Of a DNA stretch of 64,000 nt, positions 27,841-50,973 are shown piece by piece. The notes under the pieces were generated by a model. The model saw only the letters and a list, made by a program, of their open reading frames with translations. It had not been told where the DNA came from and searched no databases. Origin of the DNA: Microvirga lotononidis (lineage in GTDB: Bacteria; Pseudomonadota; Alphaproteobacteria; Rhizobiales; Beijerinckiaceae); the NCBI RefSeq assembly GCF_034627025.1, contig NZ_CP141050.1, forward strand, positions 620,001-684,000, in the 5' to 3' direction. The translations under genes were made by a program, and so were the position numbers. Positions within the stretch are counted from its first letter, which is position 1; each line of letters begins with the position of its first letter.

Positions 27841-27906
27841 CTAGCGTCCCGCGACCAGAGTTCCGGCGCGGCAGCGGCCGCGATGATGTGTGAGAAACGG
27901 CACCAT
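27841..27906 (-). CDS. Micro-ORF / small RNA gene, 21 codons (family member)
   Basis: 66-bp frame (MVPFLTHH at the start, ending RAGTLVAGR) with TTGACA exactly 31 nt before the ATG and TAAGCT as -10 after a 16-nt spacer, so the predicted transcript starts at or within a few nt of the ATG. The C-terminal pattern R-A-G-x-L-x-A-G-x is shared with 30641, 50908 and related frames. It may be a translated micropeptide or an sRNA that happens to keep an open frame. Points toward the HTH gene at 27724. Confidence 0.5.
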   Translation of the reverse strand: MVPFLTHHRGRCRAGTLVAGR

Positions 27907-28009
27907 GATGGAGCAAGCTTAGGCTGCCTCACGGCTTTGTCAAACCGCGCCTTCCGACGCGGGCAGTAACCTTGACAATCATCCTGGCGCAGCCGACATT
28001 GAAGAGGTC

Positions 28010-28069
28010 ATGTCCAGGATCCGTACCTTTTCCGCATTGCGCGCAGGCCGTCTGAAGACGGGAGCCTGA
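28010..28069 (+). CDS. Micro-ORF / small RNA gene, 19 codons (diverged family member)
   Basis: TTGACA lies 32 nt before the ATG and AGAGG is next to it. The peptide begins MSRIRTFSAL and ends RAGRLKTGA, sharing R-A-G-x-L-x-x-G-x with its relatives but two codons shorter. The hairpin CCCCGGAC / GTCCGGGG (28071-28093) starts one base after the stop codon. It precedes the small membrane protein at 28237. Confidence 0.45.
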   Translation: MSRIRTFSALRAGRLKTGA

Positions 28070-28070
28070 G

Positions 28071-28093
28071 CCCCGGACGCTTCCAGTCCGGGG
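28071..28093 (+). terminator. GC hairpin after micro-ORF 28010-28069
   Basis: 8-bp perfect stem CCCCGGAC - 7-nt loop - GTCCGGGG directly after the micro-ORF stop codon; no T run. Confidence 0.5.
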
Positions 28094-28236
28094 TTGAACG
28101 GTCCACGGCAAAACCCAACCCGCCTCAATCCCATCGTCATCCGCCGCGTGGATTGATCCGGCGTACACGGGTTTCTGCAATCACCATCCAATCGCAATGA
28201 GCGGCCGTCTCGCAGAGGCTGCCGCATGGTGAGGTC

Positions 28237-28425
28237 ATGTCCATTGTCATCCTTGCAACCTTCTTTGTCCTGACGCTCGCGCAACTCATCTTCTGGGAGC
28301 GTCTGGGCGAAGCATTCGGCTACGCGGCGTCGGTCAGCGTCCTGGGTCTGTTCGCATCCCTCACGCTGATCGTGATGGCTCAGGCCGCCGCAACCCAAAA
28401 ATTCTTCGACGGAAGAGGCCAATGA
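28237..28425 (+). CDS. Small two-helix membrane protein, 62 aa
   Basis: Two hydrophobic segments (VILATFFVLTLAQLIFWERL and FGYAASVSVLGLFASLTLIV) and a short polar tail. GTGAGGTC precedes the ATG. It is followed 80 nt later by the zinc-ribbon gene on the same strand. Function unknown. Confidence 0.5.
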   Translation: MSIVILATFFVLTLAQLIFWERLGEAFGYAASVSVLGLFASLTLIVMAQAAATQKFFDGRGQ

Positions 28426-28506
28426 CACGGCTGCGGCCGTCCTGACCGCCTCCCGCACCAACCACGACAACGGCTTTGCAGAGCAGAAGCTCGCGAAAGG
28501 AGAACG

Positions 28507-47840: not shown

Positions 47841-48136
47841 CATCATCCTCCGTTGCTTCGTGCGACTGGACCGTTCGCCCGGTGCCCCCATCCCGGATGA
47901 AGAGGCTATCCGGCAGGATGGCGAAAGAATCCTCTCTCTGGCCTGAGTGCCTGGCAAACGAAATTGTTTGCTCTGTTCGATCAAGATCTTTGGAGTTCGG
48001 GCTCCCACGAGGAGGACAGCAGGCTTTCGCCTTCCTGGCGGGGCATCGTGCAAGTTTCTCGCTCATATCCAGCAAGAAAATGCATTTGCCAGAACCTGGT
48101 CATTGCTCGAACCTTCGCCGGTTGGAGGCCAATGAC
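47841..48136. other. Leader region of the cytochrome oxidase gene
   Basis: About 300 bases without a protein gene that I can support. Long frames read through here from upstream but lack starts with ribosome-binding sites. Confidence 0.35.
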
Positions 48137-49762
48137 ATGAACGAGCGAGTTGACCATGGCGCGCTGCACGCTGGCGGACATGGAGATTACCCGACGTTCT
48201 GGCGGCGGTGGTTCTACTCGACGAACCACAAGGATATCGGCACGCTCTATCTCATGTTCGGCTTCACGGCCGGCATCATCGGCGGACTTCTGTCCATTGG
48301 CATGCGCCTGGAATTGCAGCAGCCCGGGCTCCAGTTCTTCTCCAACCCGCAGGCGTTCAACGTCTTCGTGACGGGCCACGGCCTCATCATGGTGTTCTTC
48401 GTCATCATGCCCACGCTGATCGGCGGCTTCGGCAACTGGTTCGTGCCGCTGATGATCGGCGCACCCGACATGGCCTTCCCGCGCATGAACAACATCTCCT
48501 TCTGGCTCCTCGTGGCCGCCTTCTGCCTGATGATCCTGTCCCTGTTCTCCGAGGGAGCCCCGGGCTCGCTCGGCTTCGGCGGCGGCTGGACCGCCTATCC
48601 ACCGCTCTCCACCATCGGTCATCCCGGGCCGGCCTTCGATTTTGCGATCTTCGCGCTGCACCTGTCCGGCGCCTCCTCGATCCTGGGTGCGATCAACTTC
48701 ATCACCACGATCCTGAACATGCGCGCTCCGGGCATGACGCTGCACAAGATGCCGCTGTTCGCCTGGGGCATGCTCGTCACTGCGTTCCTGCTCCTGATCA
48801 CTCTTCCGGTGCTCGCGGGCGCGATCACGATGCTGCTGACCGACCGCAACTTCGGCACGACCTTCTTCGAGCCGTCGGGCGGCGGCGATCCGGTTCTCTA
48901 CCAGCACCTGTTCTGGTTCTTCGGCCACCCCGAAGTGTACATCATGATCCTGCCGGCCTTCGGCATCATCAGCCACATCGTCTCCACCTTCTCGAAGAAG
49001 CCGATCTTCGGTTATCTCGGCATGGCCTACGCCATGGCGGCCATCGGGGTGGTCGGGAGCGTGGTGTGGGCGCACCACATGTACACAGTCGGTCTGTCGC
49101 TGCAGACCCAGGCCTATTTCGTGTTCGCCACGATGGTGATCGCGGTTCCCACGGGCGTGAAGGTGTTCTCCTGGATCGCCACCATGTGGGGCGGCTCGAT
49201 CCGCTTCACGGCGGCGATGCACTGGGCCATCGGGTTCATCTTCGTGTTCACGGTCGGCGGCGTCACCGGCGTGGTGCTGGCGAATGCTCCCGTCGACCGC
49301 TACATGCACGACACCTACTACGTGGTGGCGCACTTTCACTACGTGCTGTCATTGGGCGCCGTGTTCGGCATCTTCGCCGGCATGTACTACTGGTTCCCGA
49401 AGATCACCGGCTACGTCTATTCGGAACGCATCGGCAAGCTGCACTTCTGGATCGCCTTCATCGGCGCCAACGTGCTGTTCTTCCCGCAGCATTTCCTCGG
49501 CCTGTCCGGCATGCCGCGCCGCTACGCCGACTATCCGGACGCGTTTGCGGGCTGGAACCTTGTGTCGTCCGTCGGAGCGTACATCTTCTTCGCCGGCCTG
49601 TTCGTCTTCATGTACGGTGTGATCGCCGCTTTCCGGCGCAAGCAGCAAGCGGCCGACAACCCGTGGGGCGAAGGCGCGACGACGCTGGAATGGACCCTGT
49701 CTTCCCCGCCGCCGTTCCACCAGTTCGAGACGCTGCCGCGCATTGTGGACACCCGTCACTGA
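48137..49762 (+). CDS. ctaD: Cytochrome c oxidase subunit I (aa3 type), orphan copy
   Basis: 541 residues from the ATG at 48137, 12 helices. Heme/copper ligands are present: [10 protein letters not shown] (heme a His), [17 protein letters not shown] (CuB His and the cross-linked Tyr), WAHHMYTVG (two CuB His) and [12 protein letters not shown] (heme a3 and heme a His). It would reduce O2 in the inner membrane. Subunits II and III, heme O synthase and assembly genes are not in the window, so it must rely on other loci or be an accessory isoform. Intact. Confidence 0.95.
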
Positions 49763-49818
49763 GCGGGGCGCGATCCGCGGTCATTCCGTGCATTCATCAG
49801 CCTTGCCGCGCTCGGCCC

Positions 49819-50751
49819 TCATTCCGCAGGAATGGGGACGCCAGCATCGTGCCCCAAGCTTGCCTTCGGCGCCTCCGCCGGCGCTGGGCCGTTCCCGGGC
49901 TGTGGCTCCTCCGCCTGGGCTACCGCTCGAAGGCCTGCCAAGGCAGACTCCAGATCGTCATTCCCGGCATTCTCCGGGTAGACGGCATAGGCCGGGAGAG
50001 GGAATTCCGGCCCATGCGGCACCAGATGCAGGCGGCCGCTGGCGAGATAGGGTTGGGCCAAGCGTTTGCGGAAGTAGCCGGTTCCACCGACCTGCACAAC
50101 GTAGTCCAGCCCGAGCGGCCCTAGGCCGATGGAGAGGCCGGGGTTGGAGAACTGTGGGAAGTTCAGGCCATGATGAGCCGCAAAATCCGCACCCCAATCG
50201 ACATACACGTAGTCCGGATCCGACACGCCTTCTGTTGATGGATCCGTCGTGACCAGGACGAGCGTCTCCTCCATCAGCATCTCGACCTGCAGCCCCGGCC
50301 ATTGTCTTGGCGAATACACCACCGCCAGGTCGAGCACCCCGTCGGCAACCTGGCGCAACAGGCCGTCCGAGAGGCCAACCTGGGTCTGGAGGGCAAGGTC
50401 GGGGGCGTTGCGCCTCATCCACACCATCCAGTTCAGGAGGAGCGGGTTCCAGAGGGTCAGCTCGCCCCCCATGGCGAGGACCGCCCGGCGGCCGGCCGGA
50501 ACCGCGACCTGGTGGCGGGCCCGCTCCCAAACCTGAACCAGGGTCGGCGCGAACCGCAGAAACTGCTCCCCGGCTGCGGTTAGGGCCACTCCGGCCTTGT
50601 TGCGGATGAAGACCGGGCGCCGAAGCTGGTCCTCCAGGGAGCGGACGCGGGCGCTGACGGTGGTTTGCGTCACGTTCAGCCGCTCCGCGGCGCGGACGAA
50701 GCTTCCAGCCTCGACAATGGCCAGAAAGGTACGGGCGAGTTCGATGTCCAT
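49819..50751 (-). CDS. LysR-family transcriptional regulator
   Basis: 310 residues from the ATG at 50751. N-terminal winged helix (MDIELARTFLAIVEAGSFVR, RLNVTQTTVSARVRSLEDQL) and a C-terminal effector domain (GGELTLWNPLLLNWMVWMRR onward). Convergent with ctaD, so not an obvious regulator of it. A family micro-ORF and hairpin (50866-50973) lie in its leader on the same strand. Confidence 0.88.
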   Translation of the reverse strand: MDIELARTFLAIVEAGSFVRAAERLNVTQTTVSARVRSLEDQLRRPVFIRNKAGVALTAAGEQFLRFAPTLVQVWERARHQVAVPAGRRAVLAMGGELTLWNPLLLNWMVWMRRNAPDLALQTQVGLSDGLLRQVADGVLDLAVVYSPRQWPGLQVEMLMEETLVLVTTDPSTEGVSDPDYVYVDWGADFAAHHGLNFPQFSNPGLSIGLGPLGLDYVVQVGGTGYFRKRLAQPYLASGRLHLVPHGPEFPLPAYAVYPENAGNDDLESALAGLRAVAQAEEPQPGNGPAPAEAPKASLGHDAGVPIPAE

Positions 50752-50865
50752 GGCGGCACCCTTCGTTGGGTCTGGAGACGCACGGGGCTTGATGGGAAAA
50801 ACCGCCGCAGGTCGCGGCCGCACCGGCGGCCGAGCTCTCTGGAGCAGCTCCGGCTGCTTCCGTGG

Positions 50866-50908
50866 GCCCCGGGCTCGGGCCGCGGCGGCGCCCGAATGAG
50901 CCCGGGGC
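50866..50908 (-). terminator. GC hairpin overlapping micro-ORF stop codon
   Basis: Perfect 11-bp stem GCCCCGGGCTC / GAGCCCGGGGC with a 21-nt loop, starting at the last base of the TAG of micro-ORF 50908-50973; no T run. Lies about 115 nt before the LysR start. Confidence 0.6.
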
Positions 50909-50973
50909 TAGGTGCCCGCGATCAGGTTACCTGCGCGATGCAAGCCGCGGCTGAAACTCGGCAAGCTCAACAT
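50908..50973 (-). CDS. Micro-ORF / small RNA gene, 21 codons (family member)
   Basis: 66 bp, MLSLPSFSRG at the start and RAGNLIAGT at the end. TTGACT is exactly 31 nt before the ATG (51005-51010) with TATCCT as -10 after a 16-nt spacer, so the transcript would be nearly leaderless. It is the closest relative of the copy at 30641, 20 kb away on the other strand: the last 12 positions agree in R-G-L, R-A-G-N-L-I-A-G and in the following TAGCCCCGGGCTC. Confidence 0.55.
   Translation of the reverse strand: MLSLPSFSRGLHRAGNLIAGT

Follow-up and report, generated by a model that had tools for sequence, protein, structure and literature searches.

Micro-ORFs with stop-codon hairpins as candidate leader peptides of Rnk/GreA-GreB-family genes in Microvirga and other Alphaproteobacteria

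The 64,000-nucleotide stretch of Microvirga lotononidis DNA analysed here (contig NZ_CP141050.1, positions 620,001 to 684,000; hereafter the window) carries a set of very short open reading frames (micro-ORFs), each with a TTG at a near-fixed distance upstream of its ATG and a hairpin at its stop codon, which on sequence comparison are a family found in many Alphaproteobacteria and are considered here as candidate leader peptides. A first-pass annotation had described six of these frames, one 60 bp long and the other five 66 bp, and re-reading of the sequence found all six at the coordinates and on the strands it gave. The shared C-terminal end was read in every one, directly followed by the stop codon and with His in place of Arg at 36407, and folding placed a GC hairpin at the stop codon, or one to two bases past it, in all six. 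The count of six was incomplete, and the TTG-to-ATG spacing had been missed: the window holds eight elements, and eight more, one of them decayed, lie elsewhere in the genome, giving a total of at least 16.

The elements can be divided into subfamilies. Subfamily D is represented by a 19-codon frame at 27132..27191 on the minus strand (MNTLRHFSDHCAGHLLPGC), a clear family member with a TTG 37 nt before the ATG and a stop hairpin just after the frame. Subfamily B is represented at 27841..27906 (-) by 21 codons (MVPFLTHHRGRCRAGTLVAGR) ending in RAGTLVAGR, with a predicted hairpin at 27808..27840 (-), and subfamily C at 28010..28069 (+) by 19 codons (MSRIRTFSALRAGRLKTGA) ending in RAGRLKTGA, with a predicted hairpin at 28070..28094 (+). 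The remaining listed frames all have 21 codons: subfamily E at 29935..30000 (+) (MNTRFLMQRMLFRKGLLQTGR; end RKGLLQTGR), subfamily F at 36407..36472 (-) (MIKLVKSLRFLAHAGRLQAGM; end HAGRLQAGM; folded hairpin at 36358..36406, -), and two members of subfamily A, at 30641..30706 (+) (MLSFEQYRRGLLRAGNLIAGN; end RAGNLIAGN; hairpin at 30707..30744, +, from folding and covariation) and 50908..50973 (-) (MLSLPSFSRGLHRAGNLIAGT; end RAGNLIAGT; folded hairpin at 50867..50907, -). These two subfamily A members, 76% identical over about 105 nt, are the most alike of the copies and lie on opposite strands, as had been claimed. The eighth element, a diverged frame of 21 codons at 29730..29795 (-) (MPTPATTVCIAVRVTRCASSA), keeps the promoter and hairpin layout and has lost the C-terminal motif; related DNA occurs at other Microvirga loci. 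Outside the window, a subfamily B copy (L016; G000:C3:180483-180626, -) has a frame that continues beyond 21 codons and is probably a decayed element. Over 89% of its length, the 6-kb cluster region has 80% identity with plasmid pMVF16-5 of Microvirga sp. VF16, and no micro-ORF is annotated in the pMVF16-5 stretch compared, the feature table of which is incomplete.

Each element had been said to point to a downstream gene on its own strand, and a same-strand ORF is indeed next downstream for all eight. The 27132 element precedes a gene with CBS and BON domains (26065..27051, -), and the 27841 element precedes an ORF without a Pfam match (27342..27776, -), for which the VF16 gene at a like place is annotated as helix-turn-helix. 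The 28010 element is followed by a small ORF and then by the gene for the ribosome hibernation factor RaiA (S30AE family; 28671..29054, +). Downstream of the 29935 element is a gene for a phosphotransferase system (PTS) EIIA protein, identified by Pfam and alignment, with a listed frame at 30057..30647 (+) whose true start is probably further in. Genes of the Rnk/GreA-GreB family, whose products are RNA-polymerase secondary-channel factors, follow three elements: a Rnk_N plus GreA_GreB gene at 29099..29578 (-) after the 29730 element, an ORF at 30802..31611 (+) that contains a Rnk gene with the same two domains and a real start further in after the 30641 element, and a GreA_GreB-family gene at 35777..36226 (-) after the 36407 element. 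The rnk gene of the 30641 element is in turn followed by speD (AdoMet_dc by Pfam; 31722-32240) and speE (by synteny with VF16; 32237-33121), together 31722..33121 (+), and the 50908 element precedes a LysR-family regulator gene (49819..50823, -); all other domain assignments are by Pfam. Four Rnk/GreA-GreB-family ORFs lie within the 7.2 kb of 29099-36226, beside RaiA and polyamine genes, and the genome as a whole has eight Rnk_N matches.

The micro-ORFs were traced in other genomes by patterns and by two nucleotide models (R1 and R2), none of which contained any part of a downstream gene. A degenerate pattern was found in 17 of 298 genomes of the family, that of M. lotononidis included, and in 4 of 43 genera, the reversed pattern giving none. 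Model R1 matched in 26 of 36 other genomes of the genus, and among 24 genomes of other families in the order it gave one weak match (G051, E 0.001), which has no copy by motif scan and was not counted as confirmed. Model R2 matched in 26 of 385 genomes of the class (again own included) and in 20 of 299 genomes of the phylum, all 20 of the same class, the share of the 299 that lies outside the class not being stated by the search. Only 8-10 candidates per genome were scored, and the genome counts are therefore lower bounds. A one-genome-per-species scan gave 99 stretches, and the 80 listed are, by title, from Microvirga, Methylobacterium, Methylorubrum, Bosea, Chelatococcus, Acuticoccus, Caulobacter, Pseudoroseomonas, other Rhizobiales and metagenome-assembled genomes (MAGs), with a few chance matches outside the class. 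At the 30 non-Microvirga loci among these 80 stretches, 28 of 34 matches have exactly 21 codons under a pattern that allowed 19 to 25; the other six (Nitrospirae, Levilactobacillus, Chloroflexi, Aminicenantes, a 'Proteobacteria' MAG and an alphaproteobacterial MAG), at 3 to 443 codons, were taken as chance. The idea of a feature confined to Microvirga was rejected, the pattern and model searches having reached other genera and families. Loci L241 and L242 have no convincing micro-ORF, and L233 (= L308) has one. A Rhodospirillales MAG (L119) carries a Microvirga-like copy that may be contamination.

Placement of the element before one gene family recurs across this range. A same-strand Rnk/GreA-GreB-family gene, recognised with a profile of our own, lies within 1200 nt of 36 of 43 non-Microvirga copies; Pfam GreA_GreB (PF01272) matched 15 of 20 downstream ORFs tested, and the other five had no Pfam match. 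Downstream genes were examined for 20 of the 25 other genomes with an R2 match in the class (all except G410, G479, G676, G677 and G720) and for 11 of the 15 further genomes of the phylum search (all except G103, G911, G929 and G946). In longer stretches from outside Microvirga, such a gene is found on the same strand within 1 kb downstream in 39 of 40 loci and in 37 of the 38 that had not been chosen through Rnk (that is, without L306 and L307); the sole exception has speD-speE. The 40 are not independent cases, since several come from closely related organisms or share a genome with another locus. Those 38 places have a short frame fitting a loose motif in 34 cases and a 19-codon frame ending in FR[VI]CPIAGx in the other four. 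This variant (L301, L303, L304, L320; four genomes of the same order) has its TTG 35 nt before the ATG and a strong stop hairpin. In the reverse direction, starting from 18 Rnk_N loci in 16 other genomes, a micro-ORF lies within 900 nt upstream in 11 (two of which have the same element in common); the controls gave 0 of 18 for the opposite strand and 1 of 18 for the downstream side. Within Microvirga, a Rnk/Gre gene is downstream for subfamilies F (8/8), G (3/3) and A (36/48), and in B, D, C, E and H the downstream gene is mostly of another kind: a helix-turn-helix-like ORF, a CBS-domain gene, a small ORF and then RaiA, or a PTS IIA gene. The link in cis to Rnk/Gre genes is well supported.

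Selection on the peptide was examined with the hits of model R1 because the copies from the motif scan had been picked by their C-terminal amino acids, whereas R1 works at the nucleotide level and scores no amino acids; its hits belong mostly to subfamilies A and B. After removal by hand of 10 of 77 rows as overlapping loci of one place, 65 of 67 hits in Microvirga keep a frame that starts with ATG, runs for exactly 21 codons and closes with GxxxxGx, and 64 of 66 distinct ORFs entered the residue and codon table. Over codons 12-21 the ratio of nonsynonymous to synonymous change (pN/pS) is 0.25 in frame versus 2.01 and 3.88 in the other two frames, with 1194, 1160 and 5193 differences at codon positions 1, 2 and 3. 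The strong excess of synonymous changes that had been named beforehand as the test of this frame is thus present, and such frame-specific purifying selection implies that the peptide matters. The tightly conserved block is R13 A14 G15 x L17 x A19 G20, with residue 21 free; G15 and G20 are invariant in 64 of 64 ORFs and are encoded by four and three codons, respectively. Codons 2-11 are looser (pN/pS 0.68), with R9, G10 and L11 conserved and residues 5-8 variable, and no run of codons for one regulated amino acid was found in the table. Of 48 subfamily A copies, 46 stop with TAG, a strong amber preference that could have a function or reflect the surrounding stem sequence. The family exceeds chance: a scan of the fetched loci (568 kb) for an ATG with a TTG 36-39 nt upstream, 14-30 codons, an xGx[LMVIF]xxGx{0,3} end and a hairpin found 100 non-redundant copies, versus 0 in the reversed DNA; only this contrast counts because the loci were chosen as holders of copies. 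The codon number is 21 or sometimes 19, and 17 to 34 in relatives, where variants have a C-terminal extension, 17-22 codons or the FR[VI]CPIAGx end.

Frame-specific selection and the fixed codon number led us to reject a hairpin repeat without a coding role, and together with orthologous positions across species they leave a dispersed hairpin repeat resembling repetitive extragenic palindromic elements, with an incidental frame, extremely improbable, for all that many copies lie on both strands. Another possibility is that the elements are autonomous micropeptide genes, in which a short leaderless mRNA would end at the hairpin and a free peptide of 19-21 residues would act in trans, adjacency to Rnk reflecting co-regulation. 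Strong selection on the peptide, including the conservation of R9-G10-L11 in the subfamily A/B set, would fit this arrangement, and peTrpL is a published leaderless attenuator peptide with a trans function (PMC7298713). However, the tightest block ends one residue before the stop and residues 5-8 vary, as expected of a nascent-chain signal, and the near-constant same-strand position before Rnk in many genera also counts against free micropeptides; we consider this explanation unlikely.

The spacing upstream of the frame points to a probable 5′ end of the RNA. All eight window elements have a TTG 37-38 nt before the ATG; that of the 30641 element is part of a putative -35 hexamer, TTGACA, at 30603..30608 (+), whose first base is 38 nt before the ATG and which was not picked by a consensus scan. 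The TTG is at 37 or 38 nt in 98 of the 100 Microvirga motif copies, for which the scan required 36-39, and in 45 non-Microvirga copies picked with the TTG in sight it lies at 38 (25), 37 (10), 36 (3) or 35 nt (7). The start consensus of these 45 copies is ATC-ATG, and a weak -10 signal lies roughly between -15 and -10. The constancy of the spacing suggests that transcription starts at the ATG or up to about 3 nt before it, so that the RNAs are probably leaderless or nearly so. Leaderless transcripts have been reported in the class: Caulobacter has 375 leaderless mRNAs, and also some small coding sequences that resemble leader peptides (PMC4117421), and peTrpL of Sinorhizobium meliloti is a leaderless leader peptide (PMC7298713, PMC10117765).

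At the other end of the frame, the stop-codon hairpin covaries. In a 28-sequence alphaproteobacterial alignment, an 8-pair stem is paired in 96.8% of cells with 13 two-sided cells, a result equalled in 0 of 500 shuffles, and also scores above slid versions of itself. For 67 distinct Microvirga rows, an alignment that was fitted to the model, the paired cells (97.3%), the two-sided cells (22) and the covariation score were each equalled in 0 of 500 shuffles. The shuffles keep relatedness, and the covariation is therefore supporting evidence, not proof. Past the hairpin, a T-rich tail (at least 6 T in 12 nt) follows in 5 of 22 relatives (L225, L228, L275, L276, L277; for example TTTTCGATTGCC in L275 and TTTTTCTTTCAT in L228). 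Elsewhere a G-poor tract of about 20 nt follows, the G fraction at +11 to +20 being 0.04-0.15 in subfamilies F, D, A and E/H versus 0.29-0.42 at +41 to +60 in the same groups. This tract invites an explanation in which the hairpin only protects or spaces the RNA and release of the ribosome exposes a G-poor, C/U-rich stretch that loads Rho, much as TnaC uses a Rho utilization (rut) site just past its stop codon (PMC8429421). The tract is short, though, and weak in the non-Microvirga set and in subfamily C (G fraction 0.21 each), and the five T-rich tails do not suit a Rho-dependent leader, which we regard as quite improbable.

Three further observations on the RNA were made by eye. In L230, around 1610-1650 (+), a C-terminal extension (APEPDA) has a coding stretch GAACCGG that is complementary to hairpin CCGGTTC and might form an antiterminator pairing in this one relative. 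Between the 30641 element and rnk (30707-31210, +) there is a second conserved hairpin-like stretch, and related copies have a small ORF of about 55 codons preceded by a Shine-Dalgarno sequence and with an acidic DDDDPGPSAA-like end. Past the subfamily C hairpin (28100-28330, +) and in its orthologs, AAACCCG may pair over a long range with CGGGTTTT, replaced by GAATTCGTCC/GGACGAATTC in one or two relatives, before a conserved small ORF.

The first-pass annotation had offered micropeptide genes, attenuator leaders and dual-function small RNAs as possibilities, among which the attenuator leader is the best fit, given the recurring position in cis ahead of one gene family across many Alphaproteobacteria. 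In the probable scheme, a transcription unit begins with each element, which works in cis as a leaderless leader-peptide attenuator. Transcription from a promoter with a TTGAC-type -35 would begin at the ATG or some 3 nt upstream, so that a ribosome can start once the 5′ end emerges. The ribosome would translate 21 (sometimes 19) codons and come to a stop codon that is directly followed by the 5′ arm of the GC hairpin. A ribosome held on the stop codon would cover that arm, block the hairpin and let RNA polymerase read into the downstream gene; on its departure the hairpin would form and transcription would be cut short, by intrinsic termination at hairpins with a T-rich tail and perhaps with Rho at those that have a G-poor tract behind them. 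Because the amino-acid conservation adjoins the stop, it suggests that the nascent chain governs how long the ribosome stays there, with the R-A-G-x-L-x-A-G end, whose conservation is at the amino-acid and not the RNA level, tuning release as in TnaC. The ancestral target was likely the Rnk/GreA-GreB-family factor, and Microvirga would have spread the device to a wider set of genes.

Several results weigh against this attenuator model. Selection on the peptide would fit a trans-acting peptide as well. Two of five covariation measures did not rise above shuffles: further pair types were matched by 126 of 500 shuffles in the pan-alphaproteobacterial alignment and by 54 of 500 in the Microvirga alignment, and Microvirga pairs changed on both sides were as numerous in 244 of 500. 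Support for a terminator role is uneven, with no U-tract at the window hairpins, 17 of 22 relatives without a T-rich tail, and a terminator scan of 24000-43999 that found 5 sites versus 9.8 in shuffles and none at the element hairpins. At the promoter, a sigma-70 scan of the same interval (9 of 12 consensus bases) found 2 sites versus 2.6 and none at the elements, so the -10 is weak, and 4 of the 38 places (L302, L305, L309, L319) have no TTG at 34-40 nt. Gene linkage is likewise incomplete: 7 of the 18 Rnk_N loci have no recognised element, 12 of the 48 Microvirga subfamily A copies have no Rnk/Gre gene within 1200 nt, and within that distance one is found for only 0 of 10 copies of subfamily B, 0 of 9 of D, 2 of 12 of C and 2 of 10 of E/H. 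In subfamily A, the Rnk domain begins 254-520 nt downstream, with other sequence between.

The claim that no known family fits stood for Rfam 15, which gave no match at gathering score in the window and, in five loci, no match with an E value of 1 or lower that overlapped an element; the greA/rnk family, however, is a published target of attenuation, and a leaderless leader peptide has been published in Sinorhizobium. Naville and Gautheret (2010, PMC2965389) ranked the greA/rnk family seventh among attenuated genes and showed rnk/greA leaders with terminator and antiterminator for Pseudomonas, Enterobacteria, Yersinia and bacilli; in the main text of that paper the word Alphaproteobacteria does not occur, and its passages on rnk name no leader peptide. 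The elements described here share with those leaders a 5′ leader with a hairpin and a position upstream of a Rnk/greA-family gene (37 of 38 loci), and differ in the conserved peptide and the leaderless-type start, with no match in Rfam 15. The E. coli greA leader, through which GreA represses its own gene (PMC6829880), likewise gives a short leader RNA (GraL) ending at a hairpin before a secondary-channel factor gene, but is autoregulated, has only about 19 nt before the terminator, and comes with no mention of a peptide in the sections of that paper that concern it. By analogy, the Rnk/Gre factor itself might target the polymerase at the hairpin, and micro-ORF translation would set only the timing; GreA autoregulation and the matching gene family favour such a scheme, which leaves unexplained both the amino-acid-level conservation and the Microvirga copies before unrelated genes and seems a distinctly poor bet.

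The leader-peptide attenuator itself has counterparts in two translated leaders. TnaC (PMC8429421) is also a peptide of about 20 residues, and a ribosome parked at the stop codon and, after several copies, a G-poor tract are proposed or found here too; its sequence is different, and the hairpin directly at the stop and the leaderless-type start distinguish the present elements. In the trpL/peTrpL system (PMC7298713), also alphaproteobacterial, an attenuator RNA opens with the frame of a leaderless leader peptide, and as in trpL-type attenuators a short ORF here lies upstream of the putatively regulated gene on the same strand; peTrpL, however, has 14 amino acids with Trp codons that sense amino-acid starvation, whereas no such codon run occurs here. 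No description of this element was found in searches of open-licence PubMed Central papers.

A lead on the signal comes from polyamine genes. Six of the 40 loci (G972, G974, G306, G406, G525, G095) have homospermidine synthase or speD-speE downstream on the same strand, and three others, which belong to a single genus, have a divergent speDE nearby. Homospermidine synthase also occurs at Methylobacterium loci, and in VF16 one element is directly before hss. A polyamine gene beside every element was considered and rejected with these same-strand counts, and neither gene set was found in 31 of the 40 loci (tblastn with VF16 proteins, mostly about 6 kb on each side), which speaks against a role for polyamines; the association appears suggestive, not universal. 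Eukaryotic S-adenosylmethionine (AdoMet) decarboxylase genes have polyamine-responsive upstream ORFs, which resemble the present elements in placing a short upstream peptide before polyamine genes (in several relatives here) and differ in belonging to the eukaryotic scanning system. A rather doubtful extension of the attenuator model would have class-wide arrest peptides on leaderless RNAs sense at the stop codon either polyamines or a related state of translation termination, and so set secondary-channel factors and polyamine enzymes, with Microvirga having a multi-gene regulon (the hibernation factor region, PTS IIA, CBS, LysR, Rnk/Gre, speD-speE and homospermidine synthase).

Collectively, these elements look like an undescribed leader-peptide family, with micro-ORFs that are far below the usual annotation size, and add to the attenuation already reported in 2010 for the greA/rnk genes. 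The expansion in Microvirga, where elements also precede PTS IIA, CBS, LysR and other genes, provides at least 16 natural variants in one genome. The family as a whole would offer a testable case of coupling between the translating ribosome and the genes for RNA-polymerase-binding factors, probably on leaderless RNA.

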